From Planotetraspora silvatica (lineage in GTDB: Bacteria > Actinomycetota > Actinomycetes > Streptosporangiales > Streptosporangiaceae): a stretch of DNA of 64,000 nt. The translations under genes were made by a program, and so were the position numbers. The notes below the pieces were generated by a model that worked only from the letters and a program-made list of their open reading frames with translations, made no database searches and was not told where the DNA came from. Shown here piece after piece: positions 45,408 through 63,302 of the stretch (positions are counted from its first letter, which is position 1; each line of letters opens with the position of its first letter). Where the stretch lies: assembly GCF_016863315.1 (NCBI RefSeq), contig NZ_BOOQ01000021.1, positions 62,001-126,000 of the forward strand. Reading direction: 5' to 3'.

Positions 45408-46022
45408 GTGAATCGCATCGCGGTGTACGTGCAGGCCCACGACCCCATCCTCCGAGCCGGGGTGACCAGTCAGCTGCGCCAGCGCCCCGAGGTGCGGCTG
45501 GTGGACCAGGACGAGGCGCGGGTCGCCCTCGTCGTCGGCGACACCGTCGACGAGGAGCTGCTGCGATCGTTGAAGGCCCTGCGCTGCCGGGCCGACCTGC
45601 GCATCCTCGTGATCTCCCGGCACGTCGACGACGCCGGCCTGATCGCGGTGATGGAGATCGGGGTCGCCGGGCTGGTCCGCCGGGCGGAGGCCACGCCCGA
45701 CCGGCTCCTGGCCATCGTCGAAGCGGCCTCCAAGGGAGAGGGATCCCTGCCGCCCGATCTGCTGGGCCGGCTGCTCTCCCAGGTGGGCAGCGTCCAGCGC
45801 GACGTGCTCGGCCCTCGCGGCCTGTCGTTCACCGGCCTCGCCGACCGGGAGGTGCAGGTGCTGCGCCTGGTCGCGGATGGTTACGACACCGCCGAGATAG
45901 CGGCGCGGCTCTGCTACTCCCAGCGCACCGTGAAGAGCGTCATGCACGACGTCACGACGCGGCTCAACCTGCGCAACCGCTCGCACGCGGTGGCCTACGC
46001 GCTGAGGAACGGCCTCCTGTGA
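45408..46022 (+). CDS. LuxR-type regulator with degenerate receiver, first gene of CIS locus
   Basis: 204 residues. The N-terminal half follows a response-regulator receiver in outline (VYVQAHDPILRAGVTSQLRQ ... RILVISRHVDDAGLIAVMEI ... GLVRRAEATPDRLLAIVEAA). It lacks the usual DD acidic pair and a clear phospho-acceptor Asp at the end of strand 3, where VALVVGDTVDEE occurs. The C-terminal LuxR HTH is intact (LADREVQVLRLVADGYDTAE and YSQRTVKSVMHDVTTRLNLR). GTG 45408 is probably leaderless. The stop overlaps the next start (GTGA), so it is coupled to the CIS genes and is their likely regulator. Confidence 0.88.
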   Translation: MNRIAVYVQAHDPILRAGVTSQLRQRPEVRLVDQDEARVALVVGDTVDEELLRSLKALRCRADLRILVISRHVDDAGLIAVMEIGVAGLVRRAEATPDRLLAIVEAASKGEGSLPPDLLGRLLSQVGSVQRDVLGPRGLSFTGLADREVQVLRLVADGYDTAEIAARLCYSQRTVKSVMHDVTTRLNLRNRSHAVAYALRNGLL

Positions 46023-46636
46023 TCCACGAAATCGACGAGGCCCTGCGGAACCTGATCCGCGAGAACGCGCTAGCCGGCAGCGGAATCGAGGTGCTGCTGG
46101 AGGCGCCGACGAAGGAGTGGGCGGCCCGGCGGAACACCCCCACCGTCAACATGTACCTCTACGACATCCGCGAGGACCTGCGCAGGCGCGAACTGGGCCG
46201 GATCCCGGAGTACGACTCCGACGGCCGGATCGCGGCACGCCACCGGCCGCCTCGCCACATGAAGCTGTCCTACCTCGTCACCGCCTGGACGCAGCGGCCG
46301 GAGGACGAGCACCGGCTGCTCTCGTCGATGCTCGTCGTCCTGCTCGCCAACGAGATGATGCCGCCGTCGCGGCTCACCGGTTCCCTGGCCGAACTGGGGC
46401 TTCCCGTGCCGATGACCGTGGCGTCGCCGCCTCCGGAGGACCGCGCGTTCGCCGACGTCTGGACGGCGCTCGGCGGCGAGCTGAAGCCCTCCCTGGACGT
46501 GGTCGTCAGCGTGCCCGTTCCCGCCGTGCCGCCGGAGCCGGCCGCCCCGCTGGTGACGGAGGACCTGGTCGCCCGCGTCGTGACCAGGCAGACCCGCGTC
46601 GCGATGTCCCGCCAGGCGAAGGACCGGCGACCGTGA
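46019..46636 (+). CDS. Pvc16/DUF4255 family CIS protein (tail terminator or cap)
   Basis: 205 residues. The DUF4255 start IHEIDEALRNLIRENALAGS is followed by NTPTVNMYLYDIREDLRRRE, a family signature. HMKLSYLVTAWTQRPEDEHR and LLSSMLVVLLANEMMPPSRL are typical later. In Photorhabdus PVC and Serratia Afp the homologue (Pvc16/Afp16) caps the distal end and sets sheath-tube length. It is joined to both neighbours by 4-nt overlaps. The Ala/Pro-rich stretch after residue 165 is variable. Confidence 0.92.
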   Translation: MIHEIDEALRNLIRENALAGSGIEVLLEAPTKEWAARRNTPTVNMYLYDIREDLRRRELGRIPEYDSDGRIAARHRPPRHMKLSYLVTAWTQRPEDEHRLLSSMLVVLLANEMMPPSRLTGSLAELGLPVPMTVASPPPEDRAFADVWTALGGELKPSLDVVVSVPVPAVPPEPAAPLVTEDLVARVVTRQTRVAMSRQAKDRRP

Positions 46637-48708
46637 CCGACCCCAGCGTGACGCACCTGTTCGGGCGGCTCGGTCTCGTCGAGCGGCGGGTCCGCGGCGC
46701 CGTCGCCGCCCTCCGCGCCCGTGATCCGATCCCGGACGACCCCTTCCGCGGCCTCTACCTCTCCGACCAGGCGATCGACGAGATCCTACGATCGCGACGG
46801 CTGCCCATCGGGGACGGCGATCCGGGTCTCGCCGAAGTGGAGGCCGCCGCGGACCAGGCGGAGGCCGCGGGCGGCCGGTCCCGGCTCCGCCACCTCACCG
46901 CCGCCGCCCGCCTGAGCCACCTCGATGTCGAACTGCTGCTCGCCGCCGTGCTGCCCGACGTGGACAGCCGCTACGAGCAGCTCTACGGCTATCTGAACGA
47001 CGACGTCACGCGGCGGCGGGCCACGGCCGGGCTCGCCCTCCGACTCTGCGGCATGCAGGAGGCCTCGGCCCACGCGCGGGCCAGGCTGGACGCGCTGGCC
47101 GATCTCGGGCTCCTGGTCGTGGAGGAGCCCGAGCGGCCGCTGCTGTCCCGCACGCTCCGGGTGCCGGACCGGGTGGTCGCGCACCTGCTCGGCGACGACC
47201 GGCCCGACCCCGCGCTCGCGGCGGTTCTCACCCTCCCCGCGGCCGGCGCGACAGCCGACACGGCAGCCGGCAGAGCAGGCGAGACGGCAGCCGGGGGGCG
47301 GGCAACGGTGACGCTCCCCGGAGCCGAACGGCTGGCGCGAGCCGTACTGAACGGTGTCCGCCTCATCTACCTGCGGGAACGCGCCGGAGGAAGCGGGCAC
47401 GCCCTCGCCGTGGCCGCGCTGTCCCGAGCGGGCGCCGGCGCGCTCTGCGCGGACGCCGCCCGGCTCACCCCCGACCTCGCGCGCTCCCTCTACCGGGAGG
47501 CGCTGCTCACCGGGCGCGGAATCGTCCTCGGTCCGATCTCCGGACCGCTTCCCGCGCCGCCGACCGCGGACGTCGTCGTCATCATGTACGGCACGGCCCC
47601 CTTCGACCCGCACTGGAGCTCCACTCCCCCGCTGCCGGCCGACGTCGAAGCCGTGCCCGGCGCGGTGCGGGCGGAGTTGTGGCGCGACGCGCTGAACGGC
47701 CGGCTCGCGCCGGGAGCCGACCCGGACGCGGCGACCGCCCATTTCACGCTGGGCCCCCAGCAGATCACCCGGGCGGCGACGGCGGCCACCCTCATCGCGC
47801 TCGCGGAGGAGAGCCCGCTGCGCGCCGACCATCTGCGGCTCGGCGCACGCGCCCAGAACGCGGGCGGCCTCGAACGGCTGGCCCGCAGAATCGAGCCGGC
47901 CGTGGGCTGGGACGATCTCGTCCTTCCCCCCGACGTCACGGCACAACTGCGGGAGCTCGCCGCACGGGCGATGCACCGGGACACGGTGCTCGGCGAATGG
48001 CGGATGCGGCCGGGAGGCGGGCGCGGCCGTGGCGTGACCGCCCTGTTCGCGGGCGACTCGGGCACGGGCAAGACCATGTCGGCGGAGGTCATCGCCGCGT
48101 CGCTCGGGCTCGACCTGTACACCGTGAACCTGGCGACCGTCGTCGACAAGTACGTCGGCGAGACCGAGAAGAACCTGGAGCGGATCTTCGCCGAGGCGTC
48201 CGGGGTCAACGGCGTCCTGCTGTTCGACGAGGCCGACGCGATCTTCGGCAGGCGTTCGGAGGTCCGCGACGCGCACGACAGGTACGCCAACATCGAGAGC
48301 GCGTACCTGTTGCAGCGCATGGAGACCTTCGACGGACTCGCGATCCTGGCCACCAACCTGCGCGCCAACCTCGACGAGGCCTTCACCCGGCGGCTCGACC
48401 AGGTGGTGGACTTCCCCGTGCCCTCCTCCGACCTGCGGCGCACGTTGTGGGACCGGTGCCTGGGGGCGCGGCTGCCACGCGACCCCGACGTGGACCTCGA
48501 CTTCCTCGCGCGCTCCTTCGAACTCGCGGGCGGGCACATCCGGTCGGTCGCGATCACGGCCGCCTACCTGGCGGCGACGTCAGGTGAACCAGTGTGCATG
48601 GCGGACGTCGTCGGGGCCGTCGCCCGGGAGTACCGCAAACTCGGACGGCTCTGCCTGGAGCGGGAGTTCGGGTCCTATCTCTCCCTCGTCAGCCCGGAGC
48701 GTCAATGA
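46633..48708 (+). CDS. CIS-associated AAA+ ATPase (Pvc15-like)
   Basis: 691 residues. The N-terminal 440 residues (GLYLSDQAIDEILRSRRLPI, RLSHLDVELLLAAVLPDVDS) match the long helical domain of eCIS ATPases. The AAA+ module has Walker A GDSGTGKT at 474-481, Walker B LLFDEADAIFGRRSEV with Asp532/Glu533, sensor-1 LAILATNLRANLDEAF and the arginine finger region RRLDQVVDFP. In related systems the ATPase is needed for assembly or cargo loading. GTG 46633 overlaps the DUF4255 stop by 4 nt. Confidence 0.95.
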   Translation: MTDPSVTHLFGRLGLVERRVRGAVAALRARDPIPDDPFRGLYLSDQAIDEILRSRRLPIGDGDPGLAEVEAAADQAEAAGGRSRLRHLTAAARLSHLDVELLLAAVLPDVDSRYEQLYGYLNDDVTRRRATAGLALRLCGMQEASAHARARLDALADLGLLVVEEPERPLLSRTLRVPDRVVAHLLGDDRPDPALAAVLTLPAAGATADTAAGRAGETAAGGRATVTLPGAERLARAVLNGVRLIYLRERAGGSGHALAVAALSRAGAGALCADAARLTPDLARSLYREALLTGRGIVLGPISGPLPAPPTADVVVIMYGTAPFDPHWSSTPPLPADVEAVPGAVRAELWRDALNGRLAPGADPDAATAHFTLGPQQITRAATAATLIALAEESPLRADHLRLGARAQNAGGLERLARRIEPAVGWDDLVLPPDVTAQLRELAARAMHRDTVLGEWRMRPGGGRGRGVTALFAGDSGTGKTMSAEVIAASLGLDLYTVNLATVVDKYVGETEKNLERIFAEASGVNGVLLFDEADAIFGRRSEVRDAHDRYANIESAYLLQRMETFDGLAILATNLRANLDEAFTRRLDQVVDFPVPSSDLRRTLWDRCLGARLPRDPDVDLDFLARSFELAGGHIRSVAITAAYLAATSGEPVCMADVVGAVAREYRKLGRLCLEREFGSYLSLVSPERQ

Positions 48709-50579
48709 ACTGCATCAGTTGCGGCACCAGCAATCCACCCGGAGCCCGGTTCTGCGCGAACCCCGGCTGCGGGGCGTATCTCTCCTGGTCCGGGCAGGCC
48801 CCGGCCGAGGAGAGGCAACCGCAGACCTCGTTGCGGCCACAGGCGGGCGGCAAGACGGGAATGCGGATGGAACTCGACGTCACGGACCTGGCGGCCGAGC
48901 CCGGCACCGGCGCGCACGCACGGGCCACCGTGCACAACACCGGGACCCGGGTCGAGCGGTTCGCGCTGACCGTCACCGGCACCGCGGCCCGCTGGGCCGC
49001 GGTCGACCCCGGAGAGCTCACGGTCTACCCGGGCGACGCCGCCACCGCGACGGTCACGTTCACGCCGCCCCGCTCCCCCGCCGGACCGGCGGGCACCTGG
49101 GACTTCGTCGTGGCGGCGGCCTCCATGGTCAGCGGCGGCCTGCGCGACGACGTGCCCGGCAGGCTCACGATCGGGAGGTTCCACGCGCTGAAGGCCGTCC
49201 TGTCACCCGCAGCGTCCCGTGGCGGCGTCCGTACGCGGCACTCGCTGATGCTGGAGAACCAGGGCAACGCCCCGGAGGACCTGCGGCTCGGCGCCACCGA
49301 CGCGGAGAACGAGTTACGCATCGGGCTGCCCGCCCAGGTGCGGCTCGACCCCGGCAGGGCGACGGTCCCCGTCGAGGTCGGGGCGGCGCCCGCGACGTTC
49401 GGCATGCCGAAACGGGTGCCGTTCACGGTCGTCGTCACCCCGGCGGGCGAACCACCCGTCACCGTGGAGGGCACCCGCATAGTCACCCCCCGCTTCGGCC
49501 GCTGGCCGCTGATCGTGGCGCCTGTGCTGGTCGTCGCCCTCGTCGCGGGCGTCCTCGCGCTGACCCGTTCCTCCACCGGCCCGCCCGCCACGGCGGGTGC
49601 GGGGAGCACGGCCGCCGCGGACGGCGGGGACGGCGGCTCGGACACGACCGCCACAGAGAAGGCCACGGAGGAAGGCACGAAGAAAGCGGAGAACTCGGCC
49701 GCACCGGGCGGCGGGGCGAAGCCCACCCCCAAGGCGACCGTGAAGAAGACGCAGAAGCCGGTGACCCCTCCGGCGTACGTCGCGGGCAAGGGCGAGCTCA
49801 CGGGCGGCGTGGCCGAGGTCGCCGTACGGAACCTCGCCTCCGGCACGAGGATCTTCCTCACGCCGGATCTGACCGCCATCACGATGGCGGGCACGACCAT
49901 TGGCGACGACCGTCCGCGCACCGGGGGCAACTTCCCCGCCGCGGCGCTGCGGGTGACCGGGCGGGAGAAGAGCTCGTTCCAGGTCGGGCCGGTCACCGGT
50001 GATTCGCCTGACGGCCTGCGTTTCAGCTATCTCGTGGTCGACCGGCAGCGGGGAACCCTCGGCGGCCTGCCGTACGAGGCGGGCAGTGCGCGCATCGGAA
50101 CCGGCCAGCAACGGGTGCAGGTCTCCGGCATCGAGACCGCGACCCCGGACAGCGTGATCATCCTGACCGTGCGGGAGGGCGGCCAGGCCGTACGGATCGA
50201 CGACAAGGAGCAGGGCGGCTTCATCGCGTCGACCCTCGACGCCTCGGCCGCGACGGCCGAGGTGGCCTTCGACTACCTCGTCGTGGACCCGGCCGGGGAC
50301 GGGAAGGGGCAGGCGAAGGCCGCCGCCGGGCTCGCCAGGACCGTCCCGGGCAACGTCGGCGTCGCCGCTCCCCGGCTGGAGCACGACGTGATCGGCCCCC
50401 GATCGGCGGTCCTCCTCACGCCGGACGCCACGAGTTACCGGGACGACGCCGGCCTCTACGCCTCGGCGTTGACGGACGTCTGCGTGCTGAGCCAGGGCGA
50501 CGGCTTCGCCGAGGTCGAGCCGTTCTACACCCGGCGACCATTCGTGAAGATCCCATATGACTGGCTGGTCGTGACATGA
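48705..50579 (+). CDS. zinc-ribbon single-pass membrane protein, copy 1
   Basis: 624 residues. A zinc ribbon with Cys3, Cys6, Cys17 and Cys22 (CxxC...CxxxxC) opens the protein. Two Ig-like beta-sandwich regions follow (about 55-150 and 160-255: TVHNTGTRVERFALTVTGTA, LENQGNAPEDLRLGATDAEN), then one membrane helix near 267-287 (WPLIVAPVLVVALVAGVLAL), a charged Glu/Lys/Thr linker and a long C-terminal beta-rich domain (about 365-624). The cytoplasmic zinc part and outer C-terminus suit a sensor or membrane anchor. Start overlaps the ATPase stop (ATGA). It is the first of three tandem paralogues. Confidence 0.85.
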   Translation: MNCISCGTSNPPGARFCANPGCGAYLSWSGQAPAEERQPQTSLRPQAGGKTGMRMELDVTDLAAEPGTGAHARATVHNTGTRVERFALTVTGTAARWAAVDPGELTVYPGDAATATVTFTPPRSPAGPAGTWDFVVAAASMVSGGLRDDVPGRLTIGRFHALKAVLSPAASRGGVRTRHSLMLENQGNAPEDLRLGATDAENELRIGLPAQVRLDPGRATVPVEVGAAPATFGMPKRVPFTVVVTPAGEPPVTVEGTRIVTPRFGRWPLIVAPVLVVALVAGVLALTRSSTGPPATAGAGSTAAADGGDGGSDTTATEKATEEGTKKAENSAAPGGGAKPTPKATVKKTQKPVTPPAYVAGKGELTGGVAEVAVRNLASGTRIFLTPDLTAITMAGTTIGDDRPRTGGNFPAAALRVTGREKSSFQVGPVTGDSPDGLRFSYLVVDRQRGTLGGLPYEAGSARIGTGQQRVQVSGIETATPDSVIILTVREGGQAVRIDDKEQGGFIASTLDASAATAEVAFDYLVVDPAGDGKGQAKAAAGLARTVPGNVGVAAPRLEHDVIGPRSAVLLTPDATSYRDDAGLYASALTDVCVLSQGDGFAEVEPFYTRRPFVKIPYDWLVVT

Positions 50580-51598
50580 CTTTGACATGCGCCAAGTGCG
50601 GCTTCCAGAACGTCGGCGGCGCCCAGTTCTGCGCGAACCAGACGTGCGGCGCCTACCTTCCGTGGGACCGTGCCCGGCAGCCGGAGACGGGCCGGGTACC
50701 CGTCGCCGAGCAGCGCGCGGGCCTGCGCGTCGATCTCGCGGAGGCGTCCCTGACGGTCGAGCCTGGTCAGACGATCGGGACCCAGGTGACGATCCACAAC
50801 ACCGGGACCCGCGTCGAGCAGTTCCAGCTGCGGCTGTTCGGGCCCGCCGCCGCGTGGGGGCAGGCCGACCCGGCCGAGCTCGCCGTCTATCCGGGCACCA
50901 AGGCCACCTGTGCGTTGCGCTTCACCCCGCCCCGCTCGTCGGCGGCCGGCGCCGGCCGGTGGGATTTCGGCGTCCTCGTCGAGTCGTCGGTCAACACCGG
51001 TCTGCACGCGGACGCGACCGGCTGGCTCACGGTCGGCACGTTCTCCGCGCTCACGGCCGAGCTGTGGCCGCAGGTCACGCGTGGCCGGGGAACGACGGAG
51101 CACTCCCTCATCCTCGACAACCAGGGCAACCTCTCCGAGGTGGTGAAGCTGAGCGCCACCGACGAGTCCGGCGAGCTCCGGCTCGACCTGCCCACATCGG
51201 TCTCCGCCGTTCCCGGCCGGACGACCGTGCCCATCAGGGTGACCGTGGTGAGCGGCCAGGACGACGGCCGGACCTACCGCTTCACCGTCACCGCGGCCGC
51301 GCGCGACCGCGCGCCGATCACCGTGAACGGCTCCCGCGCGGTCCCGGCTCCGCCGCCGCGGCCTAAGCCGGCGCCCGCGCCTCCGCCGCCGCCGCGGCCC
51401 GAGCCGCCGCCGGAACCGCCCCGGCCCCAGGTCGTGTACGTTCCGTCGGGAGTCCAGCGGCAGCGCAGGGCAGGCTGCCTCGGCGGGCTGGCCAGACTGG
51501 TGCTCTGGTGTGTCGTCATCGCCCTGCTGCTCGCGGCCGCATCCTGGGCGTACGACAACCAGGACCAGGTGCGATCGTGGCTGGAGGGGTTGCAATGA
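50576..51598 (+). CDS. zinc-ribbon single-pass membrane protein, copy 2
   Basis: 340 residues. Zinc ribbon Cys5, Cys8, Cys19, Cys24; two beta-sandwich regions (VTIHNTGTRVEQFQLRLFGP and LILDNQGNLSEVVKLSATDE) as in copy 1. A Pro-rich stretch of PPPRPKPAPAPPPP type precedes a membrane helix near the C-terminus (LARLVLWCVVIALLLAAASW, about 305-325) and a 15-residue tail. It lacks the long extracytoplasmic domain of copies 1 and 3. Start overlaps the previous stop (ATGA). Confidence 0.85.
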   Translation: MTLTCAKCGFQNVGGAQFCANQTCGAYLPWDRARQPETGRVPVAEQRAGLRVDLAEASLTVEPGQTIGTQVTIHNTGTRVEQFQLRLFGPAAAWGQADPAELAVYPGTKATCALRFTPPRSSAAGAGRWDFGVLVESSVNTGLHADATGWLTVGTFSALTAELWPQVTRGRGTTEHSLILDNQGNLSEVVKLSATDESGELRLDLPTSVSAVPGRTTVPIRVTVVSGQDDGRTYRFTVTAAARDRAPITVNGSRAVPAPPPRPKPAPAPPPPPRPEPPPEPPRPQVVYVPSGVQRQRRAGCLGGLARLVLWCVVIALLLAAASWAYDNQDQVRSWLEGLQ

Positions 51599-53067
51599 GC
51601 GTCACGTGTGCGGTCTGCGGCCAGGTCAACGCCGAAGGCACCCAGTTCTGCGTCAACCCCTCCTGCGGCGCGTACCTGCCGTGGGACCGGGCGGCGGCCC
51701 ATGGCCCATCCGCCCAGGAGCCGCCGCCGGCGGACCCGCGGGGTTCGAGTGTTCCCCCTCACCCGCCGCAGCCGGAGGCGCAACCGCAGACCGCCCGGCA
51801 CGAGCGGGTGGAACAGGAGCAGCGGTCGGGGGCGCGGATCGAGCTCGCGGACCCGGCGCTCACGGTCGACCCCGGGCAGATCGCGGAGACCCAGGCGACC
51901 ATCCACAACACCGGGAACCGGGTGGAGCGGTTCCTGGTCCGCGTCTCCGGCCCCGCGGCGTCCTGGGCGAGCGTCGAGCCCGCCGACCTCACCGTCTATC
52001 CCGGCCGTCCGGGTGTCTGCACCGTGAGGTTCACGCCCTCCCGCCAGGCGGCCTCGTCCGCGGGCACGTGGAGCTTCGGTGTGCTCGCCGACTCGCAGGT
52101 CACCTCCGGTCTGCAGGCGAGCGCCGTCGGAGCCGTGCACCTGGGCGGTTACCGGTCGCTCACGCTGGCGCTCGAACCGGGCGCCGCCCGCGGCGGGAGC
52201 CGTACGACGCAGACACTGCTGATCGACAACCAGGGCAACGTTCCCGAGCGGTTACGACTCACCGCGTCCGACACCGACGGGCTGCTGACTTTCGAACTCC
52301 CGGCGGGCACGACCGTCGAGCCGGGCAGGTCGGCGGTCCCGTTCCAGGTGCACGCCCGGCAGGAATGGCTGGGCAAGCCGCAGCGGGTTCCGTTCCACGT
52401 CGTGGCCACGCCGGAGGAGGGTCAGCCGGTGAGCGCCAACGGCGTACGGATCGTCCAGCCGCGGCTGGGCGTGCTGCCGCTGGTCCTGGCCGGCGCCTTG
52501 GTGGCCGTCCTCGCCGGGGGTCTGGCGCTCAACCTGCGGCCGTCCTCGTCCGACTCGGGATCCGGCCCGCTCGTGGTGGCGGGATCGCCCACGCAGGAGG
52601 ACGCCTCTCCGGCTCCGGGCGTCACGATGCGGCCTCCTGAACCACCCTCGCCGTCGCCTTCTCCCCCTCCTGCTCCGTCGCCGTCACCGTCACCTTCGCC
52701 GTCGCCGCGGGTGAAGACCCCCGCACCTCCTCCGGTGAACCCCGCGTCGCAACTGCTCGTCGAGTATCACCGGGCGGGCGGCTTCGCCGGGTTCGCCGAT
52801 CGGATCACGGTGTTCGGGGACGGCCGCGCCACGGTCACCCGGGTGACGACCAACGTGGACACCACCCTCACGCCCGAGGAGTTGACCGGCCTCACCGAGA
52901 ATCTCGAGCGACTGCAACTCGGCGAACCCGCGCCAGAACCCGGCGGGGCCGACCACATCACGTACGAGCTGATCGTGGACGGCGAGCGGTCCGTCCGTTA
53001 CGACGCCCTGCCGCAGGACTGGCAGGACGTGACGGCCATCCTCGACCAGGTGATCGAGCGCCAGTAG
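51595..53067 (+). CDS. zinc-ribbon single-pass membrane protein, copy 3
   Basis: 490 residues. Zinc ribbon Cys5, Cys8, Cys19, Cys24; a Pro-rich linker; two beta-sandwich regions (ATIHNTGNRVERFLVRVSGP, LIDNQGNVPERLRLTASDTD); a membrane helix near 291-313 (LGVLPLVLAGALVAVLAGGL); a Pro/Ser wall-spanning linker (SPSPSPPPAPSPSPSPSPSP); then a separate C-terminal domain (LLVEYHRAGGFAGFADRITV ...). That domain resembles stand-alone exported proteins of actinomycetes. It is the last gene of the overlapping block; hairpins follow. Confidence 0.85.
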   Translation: MSVTCAVCGQVNAEGTQFCVNPSCGAYLPWDRAAAHGPSAQEPPPADPRGSSVPPHPPQPEAQPQTARHERVEQEQRSGARIELADPALTVDPGQIAETQATIHNTGNRVERFLVRVSGPAASWASVEPADLTVYPGRPGVCTVRFTPSRQAASSAGTWSFGVLADSQVTSGLQASAVGAVHLGGYRSLTLALEPGAARGGSRTTQTLLIDNQGNVPERLRLTASDTDGLLTFELPAGTTVEPGRSAVPFQVHARQEWLGKPQRVPFHVVATPEEGQPVSANGVRIVQPRLGVLPLVLAGALVAVLAGGLALNLRPSSSDSGSGPLVVAGSPTQEDASPAPGVTMRPPEPPSPSPSPPPAPSPSPSPSPSPRVKTPAPPPVNPASQLLVEYHRAGGFAGFADRITVFGDGRATVTRVTTNVDTTLTPEELTGLTENLERLQLGEPAPEPGGADHITYELIVDGERSVRYDALPQDWQDVTAILDQVIERQ

Positions 53068-53184: not shown

Positions 53185-53826
53185 ATGCACAGGCATGCCG
53201 GTGACCTCGGCGCGGAGTTCCGACCGCCGGGCGACCGCGCGCGAACCGACGAGGGGGCGGCTCTCGACGCGGGGGGAATGGATCCACGCGGCCTGCTCGG
53301 CCTGCAGCGCACGGCGGGCAACGCGGCGGTCAGCGGGATGCTGGAGGAGGAACGCTCGCCGGTCCACGACGTGATCTCCTCGGGTGGTCAGGCCCTCGAC
53401 CACGAGGTCAGGGCCGACATGGAGGGCAGGTTCGGCGCGGACTTCTCCGACGTGCGGATCCACACGGGCGAGCAGGCCCGGCACTCGGCCACCTCCGTGA
53501 ACGCCCAGGCGTACACGGTCGGGTCGGATGTCGTGTTCCAGCACTACGACCCGTCCTCCGACGCCGGCCGTCACATGCTCGCCCACGAGCTCACGCACGT
53601 CATCCAGCAGCGCAACGGCCCGGTGGACGGCACGGAGTCGGGGGGCGGCGTGCGGGTCAGCGACCCGTCCGACCGCTTCGAGCGCGAGGCCTCGGCCACC
53701 GCCGACCACGTGATGTCGGCCCCCGCTCCCGCCGTTCAGCGCGAGGAGGCGCCGGAGGAAGAGGAGGCGACGGCGCAGACGCACGTCCAGCGCCAGGAAG
53801 AGCCCGAGGAAGAGCAGGCGGAGTAG
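53185..53826 (+). CDS. eCIS core DUF4157 protein (HELTH metallopeptidase-like)
   Basis: 213 residues. The N-terminus has DPRGLLGLQRTAGNAAVSGM, a motif frequent in eCIS-linked cargo. The DUF4157 domain (about 90-150) contains GADFSDVRIHTGEQARHSAT, VNAQAYTVGSDVVF and the zinc-type HELTH at 134-138 within HMLAHELTHVIQQ. The tail (VQREEAPEEEEATAQTHVQR) is strongly acidic with VQR motifs. DUF4157 is among the strongest eCIS markers and may guide or process cargo. Here it stands without a fused toxin and precedes the candidate cargo by 2 bp. AGGGGG precedes the ATG. Confidence 0.92.
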   Translation: MHRHAGDLGAEFRPPGDRARTDEGAALDAGGMDPRGLLGLQRTAGNAAVSGMLEEERSPVHDVISSGGQALDHEVRADMEGRFGADFSDVRIHTGEQARHSATSVNAQAYTVGSDVVFQHYDPSSDAGRHMLAHELTHVIQQRNGPVDGTESGGGVRVSDPSDRFEREASATADHVMSAPAPAVQREEAPEEEEATAQTHVQRQEEPEEEQAE

Positions 53827-53828
53827 CC

Positions 53829-56800
53829 GTGCCGCCGATCGTGGACCACTCGCGGAGCGAACCTCTTCGTCGTCCGGCACAGGTGCAGCGGTGTGGAAGA
53901 GATCACCCCTGCGACTGTTCGGAGGAGCAACAGGCGGCGGCCGCCGTGCAGCGCACGGTCAGCGACCCGTCCCAGGCGGTGCGGTCACCTACCGCCCTCC
54001 TCAGCCTGCAACGGACTTCGGGAAACCTCTCGGTCGCCCACCTGGTCGTCCAGCGGAACACCTACACCAGCGACAAGGTGAAGACACTCCTCACGGAAAC
54101 GGCGGCCGATGACGTGCCGGGGGCGATCACTTCCGACCACGGCGCATGGCTGGGCCAGGCGAGCGACGACGAACGCATCGCACTGCTCAACGCATGCACC
54201 GGCGGTTCGTCCAAACAGGCCGAGCAGGCGATCGACCTCATCTGGCACCGCACGCAGAACTGGCGGGCCCTCGCCGCGGCCAATCCCGGCGTGTGGCAGC
54301 GCAGCGTCAAGGCACTCCCAAGCGACGGCTCCTTCTTCCGTAACCTCGAGGACGCCTTTCTCGAGGACACCGAGCAGGTGGCGCGTGGCTACCTGACGAT
54401 GAACGAGCAGTACTGCGACTCCTCGCTCACCTCTATGGCGTACGACAGGAACGGAAAGCCAATCATCGGGCCGCCGACCGCCGAGCAGGCCAAGGCCAGG
54501 GAGAACCCGGTCGACCAGCAGGCCGCGAAGGACCTCGTCGTCCTGCAGGAGAAACTGTCGGAAGCCCGGAAGATCGAGCTCGGCACGCGCCCAGTGGTCA
54601 CCGGGTCCGCGGAGAGCCCCTCGACGGAGTGGGTGCCCGTGTACTTCAACCCGGACGCGGCTCCGGCCGATTATTCGAAGAGCCCGTCCGCCCCGCCGTA
54701 CGAGGAGCTGAAGAAGGCCTACGACTTCGGCGTGGAGGCCATAGGCGACCTTCTCTCACTGCACCCCCGCCTGTACATCCTCGTCCGCGACAAGATCGAG
54801 GACACCTCCAAGACCGCACGCGTCTCCTCCGACACGTCGGCCGGCCGCCAGGACACGCTGACCCTGATCGCGACCGAACTGGCCGCGACGATCGCCAGCA
54901 TCGGGACGACTCGGCCGATGCTGGGCAAGGTCGTCGCGAAGGAGCTCACCCCGATCCACCGGCAGCTGCGCCAGGGCACGGCCACCAGCCCCGCCAGGCC
55001 CGGACGTAACTGGAGCAACGATCCCGTGTGGAAACCGGTCGCCGACATGTACGCCGAGCGCTCCGGCGATCCGCCATGGTGGGTGAAGCTCGGGCTCACC
55101 GCACTGGAGATGGGCGTGTACGTCATCGCCGGCCTCGCCACCGGAGGCATCGGTTTCGCGGCGGCCATGGCGATCAAGGGTGCCGGCGAGGCCGCACTGG
55201 CGGCGGGAAAGGCCGGCATCCTTACAGCCGCATCCCGGGCCAGCGTCAGTGACGACACCAAACTGGCTGACTCCCGCAAAGCCGAGGAAGCTCAGTCCGA
55301 GGTCAAGATGGCGCTGGCGTTCGCCGCGCTCGACGCCGTGATGATCGGCGTGGAGGTCCGGTCTCTCCTCATCGCCGGGAAGGTCGCCACCGCCGAGGGC
55401 GCGCAGGCGATCAAGGCGATCGAGATGTCCGGCGAGGTACTCACCATGGAACGCAAGCTCCTCGGACGAGTGCCGCTGGCCGAGGCCGAGGAGACCACCG
55501 CGCTGGCCCGCACCAAGGCGGACGAGGTGCGCAAACTCGCCGGGGAGGCGCGCGCCGCGGCGGCCAAGAGCGGCGGCAAGGACGCCCAACTGGAAGCCAG
55601 AGCACGCATGGCCGAGGCCGCGGCCGAGCGAGCAGACAAGGCCGCCAACCGGGTCAAGGACCTCAAGGACAAGATCGCGATCAGCGAGCAGGCCAAGTCC
55701 GCGGTGCCCAAGGAGGAGTTGGGCGAGGCGTTCTCGATCGGCCTGGAAGGTGGCGGCGAGCTGATCGTCACCAAGACCGGGAAGCTCTTCGTCTGCCAGT
55801 CCCCGTGCATGGCGCTCACCGAGCGCTACGCGGCCGTCATCTCCCGCAATCGCGAACTCACCCAGCGCGCCGTGGCCGTCAGGATGGCGGAGCAGGACGC
55901 GGAGAAGCTGCTGCCGGGGATGAAGGCGCCGTCGGCGAAGGCCGTACAGGCCCGGCTGGGTGCTCTGGCTCAGACATTCCAGCGGGACTGTGTGCTCTTC
56001 CAGCGCGCCGAGGAGATCGCCGGCTGGTTGCACACGGCCGAGAGCACCTATCCAGGGCTCAAGGGCGCTAATCTCGACGCCGCCGCGGTCGTCCGCGTCC
56101 TCAAGAAGGGGCCGGGTGTGGAGGCGGCGAAAGGGCAACTCCTCGAGGAGATCGCCGCTGTCCAGGTCAAATCGATGCTGGCGACGTCCGAGGGGAGGGC
56201 GAAGCTCGCCGGCCAGTTCGCGGGTGAGGCGCTGGAGTTCATCCCCGGCCACAGGTTGCGGGACGCGCAGGGCCGGCAACTCACCGACGGCATCATCGGG
56301 TTCTGGGAGGGGCCGAAGTTCCGGATCGTCACCGTGATCGAGTCGAAGGCGGGACGCTGGTCGGCCGAGGGGTTGCGCTACGGCAAGCAGGATCTCCAGG
56401 CGATTCTCACCGCCCGGTCGAGAGTCATCCGCAAGGCGTTCGCGCAGAATCCGGACGCGGTGCCCAACATCCGGGCGCTGTCTCTCGACGACTTCATCCA
56501 GCTGTACGACCCCGAGATCAAGGCGGCGCTGCGCAGGGTCGAGTCGGAGGACGACTGGAAGCGGGAAGCCCTGGAAGAGGTGAAGAAGCGGGCCGCGGCC
56601 GAAGTCAGAGCCGCCGGAAACGCCCGCGAGGCCGCCAGGATCCAGGGCATGGGCCTGAAGGAGTTCTCGGCGAAGTTCCCCGAGAAGGCGGCGCTGGCCG
56701 ACGACCTGGTGCCGTTGCCCGAGGCCGGGCAGTTCGCCCTGGATCTCGAACGCGCCGAGCAGATCGGCGGCCAGATACTCGACGCCGGCAACCTGCCGCA

Positions 56801-57068
56801 GATCGCGGAGGACGGAAAACTCGGCAAGGGATGGGCCGGCGCCCAAGTGCCGTCCGGCACCTGGAAACCGACCGAGTTCGTGGGGAACCGCGGTTCCGTC
56901 CGGATGCAGGGATTCGTCCCGGCCGACGCCAACGCCGGCCAAATCGCCGCCAACATGCAGTCCACCCAGGGCCTGCAGGGAGACGTCGCCAAGAGCGGCC
57001 TGTCCACCACCGAGTTCCACGACATAGCCGACGAGATCGTCAAGCGCGGCAAGAACCAGTCGAAGTAG
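53829..57068 (+). CDS. candidate CIS cargo with PD-(D/E)XK-like C-terminal domain
   Basis: 1079 residues, GTG start 2 nt after the DUF4157 stop. N-terminal 80 residues: VQR motifs, a Cys-rich CGRDHPCDC (22-30) and ALLSLQRTSGNLSVAHLVVQ (56-75), matching the motif of the DUF4157 protein. A helical region follows, then a hydrophobic segment (about 417-460: WWVKLGLTALEMGVYVIAGL...) and a long Ala/Glu/Lys coiled-coil (about 550-640). The C-terminal part reads LTDGIIGFWEGPKFRIVTVI then ESKAG, with Asp820 and Glu838-Ser839-Lys840 spaced like PD-(D/E)XK nucleases. No immunity gene follows. DNA-cutting activity is inferred, not shown. Confidence 0.8.
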   Translation: MPPIVDHSRSEPLRRPAQVQRCGRDHPCDCSEEQQAAAAVQRTVSDPSQAVRSPTALLSLQRTSGNLSVAHLVVQRNTYTSDKVKTLLTETAADDVPGAITSDHGAWLGQASDDERIALLNACTGGSSKQAEQAIDLIWHRTQNWRALAAANPGVWQRSVKALPSDGSFFRNLEDAFLEDTEQVARGYLTMNEQYCDSSLTSMAYDRNGKPIIGPPTAEQAKARENPVDQQAAKDLVVLQEKLSEARKIELGTRPVVTGSAESPSTEWVPVYFNPDAAPADYSKSPSAPPYEELKKAYDFGVEAIGDLLSLHPRLYILVRDKIEDTSKTARVSSDTSAGRQDTLTLIATELAATIASIGTTRPMLGKVVAKELTPIHRQLRQGTATSPARPGRNWSNDPVWKPVADMYAERSGDPPWWVKLGLTALEMGVYVIAGLATGGIGFAAAMAIKGAGEAALAAGKAGILTAASRASVSDDTKLADSRKAEEAQSEVKMALAFAALDAVMIGVEVRSLLIAGKVATAEGAQAIKAIEMSGEVLTMERKLLGRVPLAEAEETTALARTKADEVRKLAGEARAAAAKSGGKDAQLEARARMAEAAAERADKAANRVKDLKDKIAISEQAKSAVPKEELGEAFSIGLEGGGELIVTKTGKLFVCQSPCMALTERYAAVISRNRELTQRAVAVRMAEQDAEKLLPGMKAPSAKAVQARLGALAQTFQRDCVLFQRAEEIAGWLHTAESTYPGLKGANLDAAAVVRVLKKGPGVEAAKGQLLEEIAAVQVKSMLATSEGRAKLAGQFAGEALEFIPGHRLRDAQGRQLTDGIIGFWEGPKFRIVTVIESKAGRWSAEGLRYGKQDLQAILTARSRVIRKAFAQNPDAVPNIRALSLDDFIQLYDPEIKAALRRVESEDDWKREALEEVKKRAAAEVRAAGNAREAARIQGMGLKEFSAKFPEKAALADDLVPLPEAGQFALDLERAEQIGGQILDAGNLPQIAEDGKLGKGWAGAQVPSGTWKPTEFVGNRGSVRMQGFVPADANAGQIAANMQSTQGLQGDVAKSGLSTTEFHDIADEIVKRGKNQSK

Positions 57069-57213
57069 CACGTGACCAGCGGTGCCGGCCGCCAACAGAC
57101 CTGCCCCTTGGGGCAGCGGACGAGGGACCAAAGGGTGGGCGCGCGGACGCTGTGCTCACGGCCTGGGCGTCTGATTCTGGATGCGGGACGAGATTCCGCG
57201 AACGGAGGCAAGG
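57069..57213 (+). promoter_or_regulatory. leader of the sheath operon with perfect hairpin
   Basis: 145 bp upstream of the sheath gene. It contains the palindrome ctgcccc-tt-ggggcag (57101-57116), a terminator of the cargo unit or an operator. A separate promoter here is plausible, since the structural genes need far higher expression than the cargo gene; no clear -10/-35 is seen. Confidence 0.4.
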
Positions 57214-58728
57214 ATGCCCACATATCTGACCCCGGGTGTGTACGTCGAGGAGGTCGAGGCGGGCTCACGACCGATCGAGGGGGTCGGTACGGCGGTCGCC
57301 GCGTTCGTCGGCTTCGCGGCTCTCGGGCCGTACAACACCGCGACCCTCGTCACGAGCTGGAGCCAGTTCACCCAGACCTTCGGGGACTTCATCCCGGGAT
57401 GCAATCTCGCACACGCCGTTTATGGATATTTCCTGAACGGCGGCGGCACCTGCTACGTCGTCCGCATCGGCGGCGACGGCGCGGGGACCATGCCGGAACC
57501 GCAGGCGATGCTCGGCACCTACCGCGTCGCCGCGAAGGAGCTGAAGAACGGCACGCCCGAGATCGTCGTCGAGGTGGCGCAGCCGGCCGGGCAGGAAGAG
57601 GCGGGCGACAGGTTCAACCTGGTCGTGAAGCGCGACGGCAAGGTCGAGGAGACCTACGACGGCGTCACCGCCAAGCGCGGCAAGGACAACGTGGCGACCC
57701 AGGTGCAGAGCAAGTCCCGGCTGATCACGCTCGTGGACACCGGCACCACCGCCGCCGTGCCGTCGCCCCAGTCGGTCACCCTGCGGACGCCGCCGGCCCC
57801 CGCCGCCGTGCCGGACCACGTGTCGGCCGACGACTACGTCGGCAACGTCGCGGAGCGCACGGGCTTCGGTGGTCTGGAGGCCGTCGACGAGATCACCATG
57901 GTGGCGGTGCCCGACCTGATGGGCGCCTACGAGCGGGGGGCGATCGACCTCGAGGGAGTGAAGGTCGTCCAGGACGCGATCATCGCGCACTGCGAGCTGA
58001 TGGGCGACCGCATGGCGATCCTCGACGCGCCTCCCGGCATGACGGCCCACCAGGTGAAGGAGTGGCGCACCGACCTGGCCGGATACGACAGCAAGTACGC
58101 CACGCTCTACTACCCCTGGGTCAAGATCTTCGACCCGGCGGTGAACGCCACCCGATTCCTGCCGCCCAGCGGCCACGTCGCCGGGATCTGGGCGCGCAGC
58201 GACGCCACGCGCGGTGTGCACAAGGCCCCGGCCAACGAGGTCGTGCGCGGCGCGGTCGCCCTGCAGACCCAGCTCACCAAGGGTGAGCAGGAATTGCTGA
58301 ACCCGATCGGAATCAACTGCATCCGGGCGTTCTCCGGCCGCGGGATCCGGATCTGGGGCGCGCGGACGTTGTCCTCCGACCCGGCCTGGCGCTACCTCAA
58401 CGTCCGGCGCCTGTTCAACTACCTGGAGGAGTCGATCCTCACCGGCACCCAGTGGGTGGTGTTCGAGCCCAACGACGACGCCCTGTGGGCCCGGATCCGG
58501 CGTTCGATCGGCGCCTTCCTGATCCTCGGCTACCAGCAGGGCTCGCTGTTCGGCCGCACGCCCGACGAGGCCTTCTACGTCAAGTGCGACGGCGAGACGA
58601 ACACCGCGGAGAGCATCGAGGCGGGACAGGTCATCTGCGAGATCGGCGTCGCCCCGGTGAAGCCGGCCGAGTTCGTGGTCTTCCGGCTCGCCCAGATATC
58701 GGGCGGCGCCGGCCTCATCGGCGAATAG
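57214..58728 (+). CDS. contractile tail sheath protein
   Basis: 504 residues. The N-terminal PTYLTPGVYVEEVEAGSRPI with the following GVGTAVAAFVGFA is the classic sheath start. NCIRAFSGRGIRIWGARTLS and WRYLNVRRLFNYLEESILTG then WVVFEPND are the highly conserved C-terminal core that forms the contractile lattice. GGAGG lies 6 nt upstream of ATG 57214. It is the only sheath gene visible, unlike PVC/Afp loci with three. In actinobacterial CIS a single sheath is usual. Confidence 0.96.
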   Translation: MPTYLTPGVYVEEVEAGSRPIEGVGTAVAAFVGFAALGPYNTATLVTSWSQFTQTFGDFIPGCNLAHAVYGYFLNGGGTCYVVRIGGDGAGTMPEPQAMLGTYRVAAKELKNGTPEIVVEVAQPAGQEEAGDRFNLVVKRDGKVEETYDGVTAKRGKDNVATQVQSKSRLITLVDTGTTAAVPSPQSVTLRTPPAPAAVPDHVSADDYVGNVAERTGFGGLEAVDEITMVAVPDLMGAYERGAIDLEGVKVVQDAIIAHCELMGDRMAILDAPPGMTAHQVKEWRTDLAGYDSKYATLYYPWVKIFDPAVNATRFLPPSGHVAGIWARSDATRGVHKAPANEVVRGAVALQTQLTKGEQELLNPIGINCIRAFSGRGIRIWGARTLSSDPAWRYLNVRRLFNYLEESILTGTQWVVFEPNDDALWARIRRSIGAFLILGYQQGSLFGRTPDEAFYVKCDGETNTAESIEAGQVICEIGVAPVKPAEFVVFRLAQISGGAGLIGE

Positions 58729-62077: not shown

Positions 62078-62126
62078 ATGACTCGAATGGGCGGGCTCGG
62101 ACAGGCGACCCGGATAGGTGATCCGC

Positions 62127-62567
62127 ATGGATGAGGACCTGATCGCGGTCTCGGTGTGCTTCGTCGTCACGATCGACGGCAAGAACATCGGGGCGTTCAA
62201 CAGCTGCGAGGGCCTGGGCTGCGAGGTCATGATCGAGCAGCGTGAGGTGGGCGGCAACAACGGGATGGTGCTGCAGTTGCCGACCCGGTTGAAGTACCCG
62301 AACGTGAAGCTGACCAGGCCGATCACCAAGGCGACCGCCGACAAGATCCCCATGTGGCTGACGAGCCTGGCCAAGGGCGTGCAGCGCAAGACCGCGACCA
62401 TCGAGGCGCGTACGGCCATGGGCGAGGTCATCGTCGCCTGGGGCCTCACGGGGGTGGTCCCCGTGAGATGGACCGGGCCGCAGTTCACGCTCGACTCGCC
62501 CAAGGTGGCCACCGAGACGCTGGAGCTCGCCCATCACGGGTTCACCGGACCGGGATGGGGGGGCTGA
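62127..62567 (+). CDS. second tube protein / tube initiator (Pvc5-like)
   Basis: 146 residues. CFVVTIDGKNIGAFNSCEGL is the tube-fold start, with GLGCEVMIEQREVGGNNGMV then LKYPNVKLTRPITKATADKI and the TRPI motif. It differs clearly from the main tube protein (58759-59202), having extra Cys residues. By PVC/Afp analogy the second tube-like protein initiates polymerisation on the baseplate. ATG 62127 has AGGTGA 5 nt upstream; an in-frame GTG at 62118 is possible. Confidence 0.93.
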   Translation: MDEDLIAVSVCFVVTIDGKNIGAFNSCEGLGCEVMIEQREVGGNNGMVLQLPTRLKYPNVKLTRPITKATADKIPMWLTSLAKGVQRKTATIEARTAMGEVIVAWGLTGVVPVRWTGPQFTLDSPKVATETLELAHHGFTGPGWGG

Positions 62568-62570
62568 GCG

Positions 62571-63302
62571 ATGGCCGCCACTCCCGTCACCTTCAGCGCC
62601 CCCGGCGTCACCGGCGCGGCTCCGGCCAGCGTGCAGGAGGCGTTCCTCGCGATCCACGAGCCGCCGAAGACGCCGACGGACCGCAATCCCGGCGCGCAGA
62701 TCGGCACCGTGAAGTTTCAGTACAACCCGAAGGAGCTCTCGCTCACCAAGTCGGCGAGCTGGGAGCGCAAGGCGCAGAAGAAGACCGATCGCAGCGCCCG
62801 TCCGCAGTATCTGGGGTCGGACCCCTGCAAGCTGCAGCTGGAGATGTTCCTCGACGCGACCGAGAAGATGGACGACGGCGTGGTCAAGGCGGTGGAGCGG
62901 CTGTTCTCCTGCATGGTCTGCGCGGAGGGCAAGCCGACGCCGCCTTGGGTGATCTTCAACTGGGGCGGGCTGACCGGCTTCCCCGCGTTCGTCAGCAGCG
63001 TGACCGCGAAGTACACCCTGTTCACCCCCGGCGGGATGCCCGTACGCGCCCTGTGCACGATCGCCGTGGAGGAGGTGTTCGGCACCACGAAGCGGCAGAA
63101 CCCCACGTCGGGCTCCCTGGCCGCCAGGGACGTGCACGTGGTGGTCGCCGGGGACACCCTGGCCGGCATGGCCTACGCCTACTACGGCGAGCCCGGCTTC
63201 TGGCGGGAGATCGCGAAGGCCAACGACATCGGGGACCCGATGCGGCTCCGGCCGGGCGCCCGGCTGCTGATCCCCGCGAGGGAGGAACTCGGTGGCGGGT
63301 GA
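62571..63302 (+). CDS. LysM tube-initiator / baseplate protein (Pvc7-like)
   Basis: 243 residues. The CIS tube protein N-terminal domain has VKFQYNPKELSLTKSASWER and PCKLQLEMFLDATEKMDDGV. The C-terminal LysM domain (about 185-240) reads HVVVAGDTLAGMAYAYYGEP, IAKANDIGDPMRLRPGARLL and ends in LIPA. The order (tube 2, LysM protein, VgrG-like hub) is the same as Pvc5-Pvc7-Pvc8. LysM may bind glycan or act as a structural adaptor. The hub gene starts inside its last codons. Confidence 0.93.
   Translation: MAATPVTFSAPGVTGAAPASVQEAFLAIHEPPKTPTDRNPGAQIGTVKFQYNPKELSLTKSASWERKAQKKTDRSARPQYLGSDPCKLQLEMFLDATEKMDDGVVKAVERLFSCMVCAEGKPTPPWVIFNWGGLTGFPAFVSSVTAKYTLFTPGGMPVRALCTIAVEEVFGTTKRQNPTSGSLAARDVHVVVAGDTLAGMAYAYYGEPGFWREIAKANDIGDPMRLRPGARLLIPAREELGGG

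Follow-up and report, generated by a model that had tools for sequence, protein, structure and literature searches.

Known contractile injection system cargos

The class of contractile injection system (CIS) cargo considered here is already known from the reconfigurable Sle1-type proteins (PMC13277306) and the nuclease Tme (PMC11126660). At the Sle1/Sle2 locus, a small DUF4157 gene is followed by a large cargo gene and then by the sheath gene. Sle1-type cargos have hydrophobic stretches, an extensive coiled coil in the N-terminal part that is remotely homologous to tape measures, and a divergent, exchangeable C-terminus, which is a helical domain in Sle1 and deaminase-like in some of its published relatives (PMC13277306). 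Tme of Streptomyces davawensis has hydrophobic stretches as well, with DUF4157 in the same chain and a C-terminal EndA-like nuclease (DRGH, H-N-N) (PMC11126660). Three further toxins are relevant for comparison. BaCT, found mostly in Bacteroidetes and present in Flavobacterium hydatis, is a PD-(D/E)xK DNase domain that is sometimes fused to DUF4157 (PMC7073777), PoNe is a PD-(D/E)xK polymorphic toxin domain encoded next to a DUF1911 immunity gene (PMC6688995), and EAT16 of Photorhabdus is a CIS-associated toxin with a Holliday-junction-resolvase-like DUF4365 domain (PMC11297309). The literature searched yielded no description of the C-terminal domain family, the cassette exchange or the LQRxxGN motif reported below.

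A probable Sle1-type cargo gene in an actinobacterial CIS locus

We analyzed a stretch of 64,000 nucleotides from Planotetraspora silvatica, hereafter the window, which carries the following CIS genes.

46019..46636, plus strand: Pvc16_N gene of the CIS
46117..48708, plus strand: AAA ATPase gene of the CIS, with WHD
48594..53067, plus strand: three tandem paralogues (ORFs 48594-50579, 50576-51598 and 51508-53067), rival cargo candidates
53185..53826, plus strand: small DUF4157 (eCIS_core) gene, Sle2-like partner with LLGLQRTAGN
53829..57068, plus strand: CIS cargo gene, 1079 aa, in Sle1-type position, with a predicted PD-(D/E)XK-like C-terminal domain
57181..58728, plus strand: sheath gene (PF04984/PF17482), with a further ATG at 57214
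62118..63302, plus strand: tube protein genes (Phage_T4_gp19; CIS_tube with LysM)

The AAA ATPase gene probably starts further in than its ORF, because the protein of the congener G003 aligns from ORF residue 173. The cargo ORF opens with GTG and runs for 1079 codons with internal stops absent. Its coordinates agree with an earlier note on this DNA, which had placed a 1079-residue gene 2 nt 3' of the DUF4157 gene and ahead of the sheath. The DUF4157 gene (PF13699, E 2.4e-32) lies in an ORF that extends from 53128, with a likely ATG start at 53185, and ends at 53826. Since the order DUF4157 - cargo - sheath matches that of Sle1/Sle2 of Streptomyces lividans, the gene is best read as a Sle1-type actinobacterial CIS cargo. 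As in the Sle1-type loci, the small DUF4157 gene adjoins a large cargo that lacks DUF4157 and lies just 5' of the sheath (PMC13277306), whereas in Tme the DUF4157 domain is part of the cargo chain (PMC11126660).

The sheath ORF begins only 112 nt beyond the end of the cargo gene, too little space for a separate immunity gene in the slot, and the earlier remark that no immunity-like gene is adjacent therefore holds. The corresponding gap measures 83-116 nt in four relatives (G004, G002, G054 and G130) and 120 nt in G003; none of the six slots read (the window and these five relatives) contains a separate immunity-sized gene between cargo and sheath. This arrangement differs from that of the M. 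eburnea pair, which has an adjacent immunity gene (PMC13277306), and from that of PoNe with its DUF1911 neighbor (PMC6688995).

Outside its C-terminal domain, the cargo protein has three recognizable features.

53892..53918, plus strand: Cys/His patch CGRDHPCDC, residues 22-30
54006..54026, plus strand: LQRTSGN, residues 60-66, proposed docking/loading tag
55083..55379, plus strand: pair of modestly hydrophobic segments (residues about 419-450 and 492-517), from hydropathy only

The protein matches no Pfam family at E up to 0.1, and hence no DUF4157. The Cys-rich patch is present as described. Patches of the form CGxxxHxGCxC that resemble it occur in the G003 cargo and, as judged by eye, in another protein of the window's own genome. 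Where a single hydrophobic stretch had been noted, we find two, with peaks at 428-450 and 492-517 of only modest hydropathy (Kyte-Doolittle maximum 1.76), so that a membrane hairpin is possible; hydrophobic stretches also occur in Sle1-type cargos and in Tme. Residues 521-640, rich in Ala, Glu and Lys, are a candidate region for the coiled coil of the earlier note. No tape-measure profile of Pfam or PHROGs matched the cargo body, whereas Sle1-type proteins have remote tape-measure homology (PMC13277306).

The N-terminal LQRTSGN that the cargo had been said to have in common with the DUF4157 protein is confirmed, its counterpart being the LLGLQRTAGN of the latter. When the open segments in all six frames are taken together for the window and two further stretches (L023 and L024), a total of 110,748 residues, LQRxxGN occurs only twice, in exactly these two proteins. 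It is likewise kept, N-terminally, in 6/6 slot cargos read and in 6/6 of their DUF4157 partners. We suggest that the motif might serve in docking or loading. Cargo choice by CIS is poorly known, and a short motif that persists while the payloads of a slot differ offers a direct and cheap test of loading.

Exchange of the whole cargo gene among relatives

In relatives whose flanking DNA is up to 95-99% identical to that of the window, the cargo gene is precisely replaced as a whole. The DNA of G004 is 95.4% identical up to position 53832 and 98.5% identical from 57100, with no match between (matches over 60 nt are considered). Identity breaks alike in G002 (53814/57102), G003 (53801/57103) and G054 (53819/57111), and at 53715/57102 in the more distant G130. 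The survey covered 200 family genomes, 27 of which, the window's own included, have a related sheath; upstream of the sheath, read in nine besides our own, DUF4157 and cargo genes are found in five. In the other four (G318, G017, G270 and G733), the stretch read has no match to the window DUF4157 (tblastn 1e-4) and no LQRxxGN, and the genus mate G001 has no sheath match.

Of the five other occupants, three have a Pput_2613-like deaminase domain at the C-terminus (PF14427, E 3.4e-25 to 1.9e-24), including those of the congeners G004 and G002, which recalls the deaminase-like C-terminus among published Sle1 relatives (PMC13277306). The slot of the congener G003 holds a distant homologue of the window cargo body with a different C-terminus, and this protein matches Ntox1 (PF15500, E 1.1e-10). 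Ntox1 as a pre-toxin module common to the two proteins was dropped, because 26/500 shuffles reach the local alignment score. The slot cargos range in length between 607 and 1079 aa, beside sheaths that are 75-99% identical to that of the window. The earlier note had suggested checking whether the C-terminal domain swaps between CIS loci. The domain alone is common to proteins of different phyla, as described below, while within the genus the breaks in DNA identity near both gene edges point to exchange of the whole gene and not to a C-terminal swap. Since close relatives carry other cargo genes in exactly the same place, the CIS resembles a syringe that stays the same while its payload is exchanged. 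Congeners that pair near-identical syringes with dissimilar toxins also offer a natural experiment, in which one can ask if the phenotype (death, sporulation or competition) depends on the payload.

The C-terminal domain and its candidate catalytic residues

56046..57065, plus strand: C-terminal domain, residues 740-1079, aligned with Psychroserpens and Chloroflexi C-termini
56145..56150, plus strand: Glu773-Glu774 in the invariant KGQLLEEI, candidate helix glutamate of PD-(D/E)XK
56286..56288, plus strand: Asp820, candidate catalytic residue, invariant 3/3
56340..56348, plus strand: Glu838-x-Lys840, candidate catalytic residues, invariant 3/3

The same domain closes two otherwise dissimilar proteins, one from Psychroserpens and one from a Chloroflexi MAG, to which BLASTP similarity is confined to the C-terminus, with best-segment identities of 44% and 40%. 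The Psychroserpens protein contains two eCIS_core domains and is encoded within a CIS cluster, directly 3' of a tape-measure gene (PF19268, E 9.9e-102). Genes resembling those of gp25 and the spike lie further upstream in this cluster, and on the downstream side there are an eCIS_core gene and an AAA ATPase gene. The Chloroflexi protein is probably a CIS cargo of the same kind, so that the family has, besides the window protein, one member in a clear CIS cluster and one probable CIS cargo.

The earlier note had proposed Asp820, Glu838 and Lys840 as the active site of a PD-(D/E)XK nuclease, on the basis of their spacing. The residues lie at the positions first described, and all three, although named before any homologue had been seen, are invariant in the three sequences, which come from three phyla, as are Glu773 and Glu774; the proposal thereby withstood this attempt at refutation, on three sequences only. 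For the three residues named in advance, against a background of 52/340 invariant window positions in the three-sequence alignment, a naive hypergeometric test gives p = 0.003. As evidence by itself, the D...ExK spacing was rejected, since it is frequent by chance: the cargo protein contains 11 D-x(10-22)-[DE]xK pairs, compared with 5.9 +/- 3.0 in 300 shuffles. The PD-(D/E)XK signature consists of a helix Glu, an Asp, a hydrophobic strand and ExK, in that order, the conserved Glu lying in the helix that precedes the active-site Asp. The core fold of the superfamily is alpha-beta-beta-beta-alpha-beta. A crude Chou-Fasman profile agrees with it only in part: the upstream helix, strands near 821-836 and a further helix behind them are predicted, but so is helix for residues 800-806 and for the whole ExK segment. 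Taken together, residue order and conservation support a PD-(D/E)XK-like pattern in the predicted domain.

No significant match to known nuclease families was obtained for the protein or its C-terminal domain in Pfam or NCBIfam, and neither PHROGs (best E 0.066) nor PADLOC (best E 0.078) gave a significant match for the protein; the best PDB sequence match (E 0.02) is to a designed helical protein. Because the superfamily is divergent, the absent profile match is weak evidence against membership, and escape from sequence searches has been stated in connection with PoNe (PMC6688995). The domain resembles BaCT by description only, in its extent of about 300 C-terminal residues and its conserved (D/E)xK region, and one of its relatives is likewise from the Bacteroidota (PMC7073777). 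It would also resemble PoNe as a predicted PD-(D/E)xK toxin domain, yet the PoNe motif Kx3GE-xn-GIDx2Y-xn-Yx3ExK is absent from the window cargo, which by eye has KGQLLEE...TDGI...ESK (PMC6688995). EAT16 has a DxGxD...QxK motif and a DUF4365 profile (PMC11297309), and Pfam did not find DUF4365 in the window cargo; the DRGH and H-N-N of Tme, with which the window protein would have a C-terminal nuclease in common (PMC11126660), contrast with D...ExK, and the helical domain of Sle1 (PMC13277306) with the predicted PD-(D/E)XK-like one. We regard the domain as an unannotated toxin family, probably of nucleases, and the gene as a probable DNA- or RNA-cutting cargo of a CIS nanosyringe. The claim of a new CIS nuclease cargo is supported as to CIS cargo, given gene order, slot exchange and the Psychroserpens cluster, though not as a new class.

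Proposed function and alternative explanations

We propose that the gene at present fills an exchangeable CIS slot between the DUF4157 adaptor gene and the sheath gene. By analogy with published relatives, the cargo would be packaged and docked to its DUF4157 partner. In this model, the DUF4157 protein most likely attaches the LQRxxGN-bearing leader to the tube or baseplate, the body with its hydrophobic stretches would lie inside the tube and might enter a membrane when the system fires, and the C-terminal 300 or so residues could act, once ejected, as a metal-dependent PD-(D/E)XK-type nuclease on DNA or RNA. As a whole, we consider this account fairly likely. It is improbable, in our judgment, that the toxin ends instead in a different kind of enzyme or in a binding domain, with the conserved acidic and basic residues used for some other chemistry; the missing profile match and the chance frequency of the spacing are compatible with that possibility, as is the fact that His808, Arg809, Asp812 and Gln817 are as invariant as the proposed catalytic residues, but the signature order of elements, the invariance of residues named in advance and the elusiveness of the superfamily argue for a nuclease of the PD-(D/E)XK type. 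Less probable still is that the main effectors are the three tandem paralogues, the 1079-residue protein being structural, tape-measure-like or accessory with a decaying or dispensable C-terminus. The paralogues are similar to one another in DNA, and each combines a single strongly hydrophobic segment with an Ig-like (Cep192_D3) match, below the Pfam cut-off in the middle one; by description they resemble the one-span Sco4256-4258 of S. coelicolor with their similar N-termini, whose loss left the tube lumen empty in most particles (PMC10066040). However, replacement of a whole gene by recognizable deaminase toxins is not expected of a structural component, nor is its variation in length beside such similar sheaths, and conserved residues of catalytic type argue against decay. 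Paralogue effectors and slot cargo could also coexist.

Where the predicted nuclease would act is a separate question. The toxin families in the slot are of antibacterial type, expression of several eCIS-associated toxins is lethal to E. coli or yeast (PMC8213781, PMC11297309), and an immunity gene lies downstream of one Sle1-type effector (PMC13277306), all of which would suit a weapon of the conventional kind that leaves the cell to attack bacteria or eukaryotes, immunity being unneeded or encoded at another locus. We find this possible but doubtful, given six slots free of a separate immunity-sized gene and Streptomyces CIS that act on the producer (PMC10066040, PMC12237407, PMC11126660). 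The target may rather be the producer's own hyphae or siblings, an own-cell death mode for which Streptomyces CIS provide the precedent. More speculatively, and with doubts that it will hold in full, LQRxxGN could be an actinobacterial CIS cargo address common to the DUF4157 adaptor and to cargos without other detectable similarity, with the slot exchanged whole by flank recombination and its toxins, which attack nucleic acids, discharged inside the producer's own mycelium as a switch of death or development that differs between strains, which would explain why immunity genes are not adjacent; the present occupant would then represent a new PD-(D/E)XK family that has spread between CIS effectors in two and probably three phyla.

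Distribution of the cargo and its C-terminal domain

The genome scan that found the homologues is no census, because it depended on short peptide patterns being matched exactly and examined 80 stretches. The single C-terminal sequence retrieved, besides its own genome, three weak matches in 297 order genomes (E 0.005-0.009, two with internal stops) and three in 396 phylum genomes (E 0.003-0.008), searches in which scoring was mostly limited to 6-8 candidates per genome, so that remote members could be missed; one weak phylum match inspected proved to be a ribosomal-protein and elongation-factor gene region. For the cargo, viral contigs gave 4 and 21 pattern matches with 0 confirmed, a phage search gave no match, and three plasmid searches were without match while one returned 10 records at E 0.4-9, which is noise. 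The C-terminal alignment recovered only known carriers in 128 + 113 genomes (E 1e-5), and in 299 + 201 genomes (E 1e-3) these plus G906 (E 6.7e-4, partial); the 299 genomes, those of the Psychroserpens family, yielded Psychroserpens and one weak partial match to the three-sequence profile but no convincing further member. The full protein matched only its own genome and G003 among 100 relatives, and the body alignment gave the same two in 250 family genomes, plus a short leader match in contig C58 of the window's own genome. A second weak own-genome match lies in contig C24 (E 4e-4).

Results

The putative cargo gene of the contractile injection system (CIS) cluster starts 2 nt after a small DUF4157 gene (eCIS_core, PF13699, E 2.4e-32) and is followed, after 112 nt, by a sheath ORF (PF04984, PF17482).

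53829-57068, forward strand: intact cargo ORF, 1079 aa, start GTG
48594-53067: three tandem paralogous ORFs 5' of the DUF4157 gene, with Ig-like (Cep192_D3) matches, one of them below cut-off

The cluster also encodes Pvc16_N, an AAA ATPase and tube proteins, and ORFs with Phage_base_V, Baseplate_J and Tail_P2_I lie past the window end. These coordinates bear out the position described in the earlier note, 3' of the DUF4157 gene and 5' of the sheath, and each residue cited there was found at its given place. Neither Pfam nor NCBIfam gave a match to any part of the cargo protein (E up to 0.1).

A related sheath is present in 26 genomes besides the window's own, and we read the stretch upstream of the sheath in nine of these. 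In congeners G004 and G002 and in G054 and G130, from other genera of the family, the DUF4157 protein is 69-97% and the sheath 75-99% identical to the window's, and neither tblastn (1e-4) nor BLASTP (0.01) detects any similarity between their slot cargos and that of the window. For G004, identity to the window is 95.4% in the flank that ends at 53832 and 98.5% in the one that begins at 57100, so that the segment exchanged coincides almost to the nucleotide with the cargo gene. The cargos of G004, G002 and G054, 60-62% identical among themselves, end in a Pput_2613-like deaminase (PF14427), and that of G130 (L058:1689-3512, 607 aa) has no Pfam match up to E 1; by eye alone, its C-terminus looks HNH-like. 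In a third congener, G003, DNA identity to the window is 84% up to 53801 and 94% from 57103 onward, with no match at E 1e-5 between these positions. Its slot (L002:643-3468) holds a 941-aa ORF with a dissimilar C-terminus and a body that shares 26% identity with that of the window cargo (residues 32-509); Ntox1 (E 1.1e-10) lies mid-protein at 639-716 and, being followed by another 225 residues, is perhaps not the terminal toxin. In the other four genomes read (G318, G017, G270, G733), where the sheath is less similar, the stretch read gave neither a DUF4157 match nor LQRxxGN.

A pattern scan with residues 757-892 across a collection described as one genome per species, 84,980 species in all, gave 80 candidate stretches, two of which encode relatives, in Psychroserpens luteolus (Bacteroidota; 44% identity in the best segment) and in an uncultured Chloroflexi MAG (40%). 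BLASTP likeness is limited to the C-terminus (window 740-908 and 744-856, respectively). The Psychroserpens homologue (L016:2126-10738), a protein of 2870 aa, contains two eCIS_core stretches. Its gene starts 55 nt downstream of one for a CIS tape measure (PF19268), and gp25- and spike-like genes lie farther upstream; a vanadium-chloroperoxidase-like gene, a ParA-like gene and one more eCIS_core gene follow it within the CIS cluster (L016:10765-14504), and an AAA ATPase gene also lies downstream. Since the Chloroflexi homologue (1154 aa or more) lacks a DUF4157 match, and its 5.4-kb contig showed no structural CIS gene, we infer rather than observe that it is a CIS cargo. When all three sequences are aligned, 52 of the 340 window residues covered are the same throughout, including KGQLLEEI (768-775), GHR (807-809), D812, Q817, D820-G-I and E838-x-K840-A-G. 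D820, E838 and K840, which the earlier note had singled out in advance, are thus all among the residues conserved in 3/3 sequences (naive p 0.003). Profile searches with this alignment, own genomes included, covered 299 genomes of the Psychroserpens family and 201 of the Chloroflexi MAG phylum at E 1e-3, and 128 of the Psychroserpens phylum and 113 of the window genome's class at E 1e-5; apart from the carriers already known, they returned a single match, weak and partial. Nothing convincing came from plasmid, phage or viral collections.

Every one of the six slot cargos has a single LQRxxGN, which begins between residues 32 and 106 when counted from the ORF starts adopted here, and every one of the six DUF4157 partners likewise has one. 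Across six-frame open segments totalling 110,748 residues, from the window and stretches L023 and L024, the sole LQRxxGN sites are those of the window cargo and its DUF4157 protein, the pair said in the earlier note to share a motif.

Discussion

In the available parts of PMC13277306, the Sle1 cargo gene of Streptomyces lividans adjoins the gene for a small DUF4157 protein, Sle2, directly 5' of the sheath; Sle2 was found to interact with Sle1 through the latter's N-terminal part, and potentially with a tube initiator, and Sle1-type pairs across Actinobacteria have dissimilar C-termini. The window gene has a small DUF4157 neighbor and the same location and thus fits the Sle1 position. We consider it likely a CIS cargo, of a kind already known from the published Sle1-type reconfigurable effectors. 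A purely structural slot gene is unlikely, because relatives replace the whole gene with recognizable toxins. The three upstream paralogues, each with one strong hydrophobic span, may be additional effectors. In layout they resemble the Sco4256-4258 effectors of S. coelicolor, as partially available in PMC10066040. The earlier note asked whether the C-terminal domain swaps between CIS loci: congeners exchange the entire gene, whereas the C-terminus alone is common to the window, Psychroserpens and Chloroflexi proteins.

In PD-(D/E)XK nucleases, a Glu-bearing helix comes first, followed by an Asp that precedes a hydrophobic strand and finally by ExK. The window domain has the same order, with Glu in a predicted helix, Asp820 ahead of a predicted hydrophobic strand, and ExK; together with invariance in three sequences, this makes the C-terminal domain a probable, predicted PD-(D/E)XK-type nuclease. 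Against this reading, other polar residues are just as invariant in the alignment, a crude propensity profile agrees only in part with the PD-(D/E)XK layout, and searches with nuclease profiles and PDB sequences gave no significant match. Arguments from a comparable order of residues, in favor of PD-(D/E)XK, were made for BaCT (PMC7073777) and PoNe (PMC6688995), as far as the excerpts of these papers extend. Nuclease precedents are Tme, BaCT (compared by description only) and EAT16; Tme, a cargo of S. davawensis, is a tape-measure-related protein that has an EndA-like nuclease and serves sporulation of its producer (PMC11126660, in excerpt).

The cargo stop lies 83-116 nt from the sheath start in the window, G004, G002, G054 and G130 (120 nt in G003), and the DUF4157 stop 0-60 nt from the cargo start in the former five. 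In none of the six slots, deaminase ones included, could these gaps accommodate a distinct immunity gene without overlap, in keeping with the absence of an adjacent immunity gene noted earlier. One published Sle1-type cargo has a deaminase-like C-terminus and an immunity protein downstream (PMC13277306, in part). Judged from the slot gaps, our data are consistent with a system that fires within the producer or on targets other than bacteria, but immunity may instead be encoded elsewhere in the genome or in overlapping frames. In S. coelicolor, CIS are cytoplasmic and mediate producer cell death under stress, according to the accessible portions of PMC10066040 and PMC12237407. The window cargo may act on its producer, though this is somewhat less likely than not.

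The six cargos have three kinds of body (window and G003; G004, G002 and G054; G130) that share no other BLAST-detectable likeness, which makes LQRxxGN a candidate docking or loading tag. As far as literature searches show, the clean cassette exchange between congeners, the motif's retention through it and the occurrence of this putative domain family in three phyla are new. We found no mention of LQRxxGN or LQRTAGN in the text of the papers searched; figures were unsearchable, so the motif may already be in print. An N-terminal CIS signal has been described by composition (PMC11297309, available in part).

The Chloroflexi gene next after the homologue (L017:3497-4996) has an MQRTGGN leader, an OmpA domain (PF00691) and, by eye, an HEFGH motif; its leader suggests that the motif may extend past Actinobacteria. 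On another contig of the window's own genome (G000:C58, L015:127-2673), an 848-aa ORF carries LQGSAGN, VQRCGGEVHAGCACAEE, and, near its C-terminus, HEFGHAIGLHH, metzincin-like by eye; its best Pfam match, Peptidase_M10 (E 0.033), is below cut-off. This ORF is possibly a second CIS cargo.
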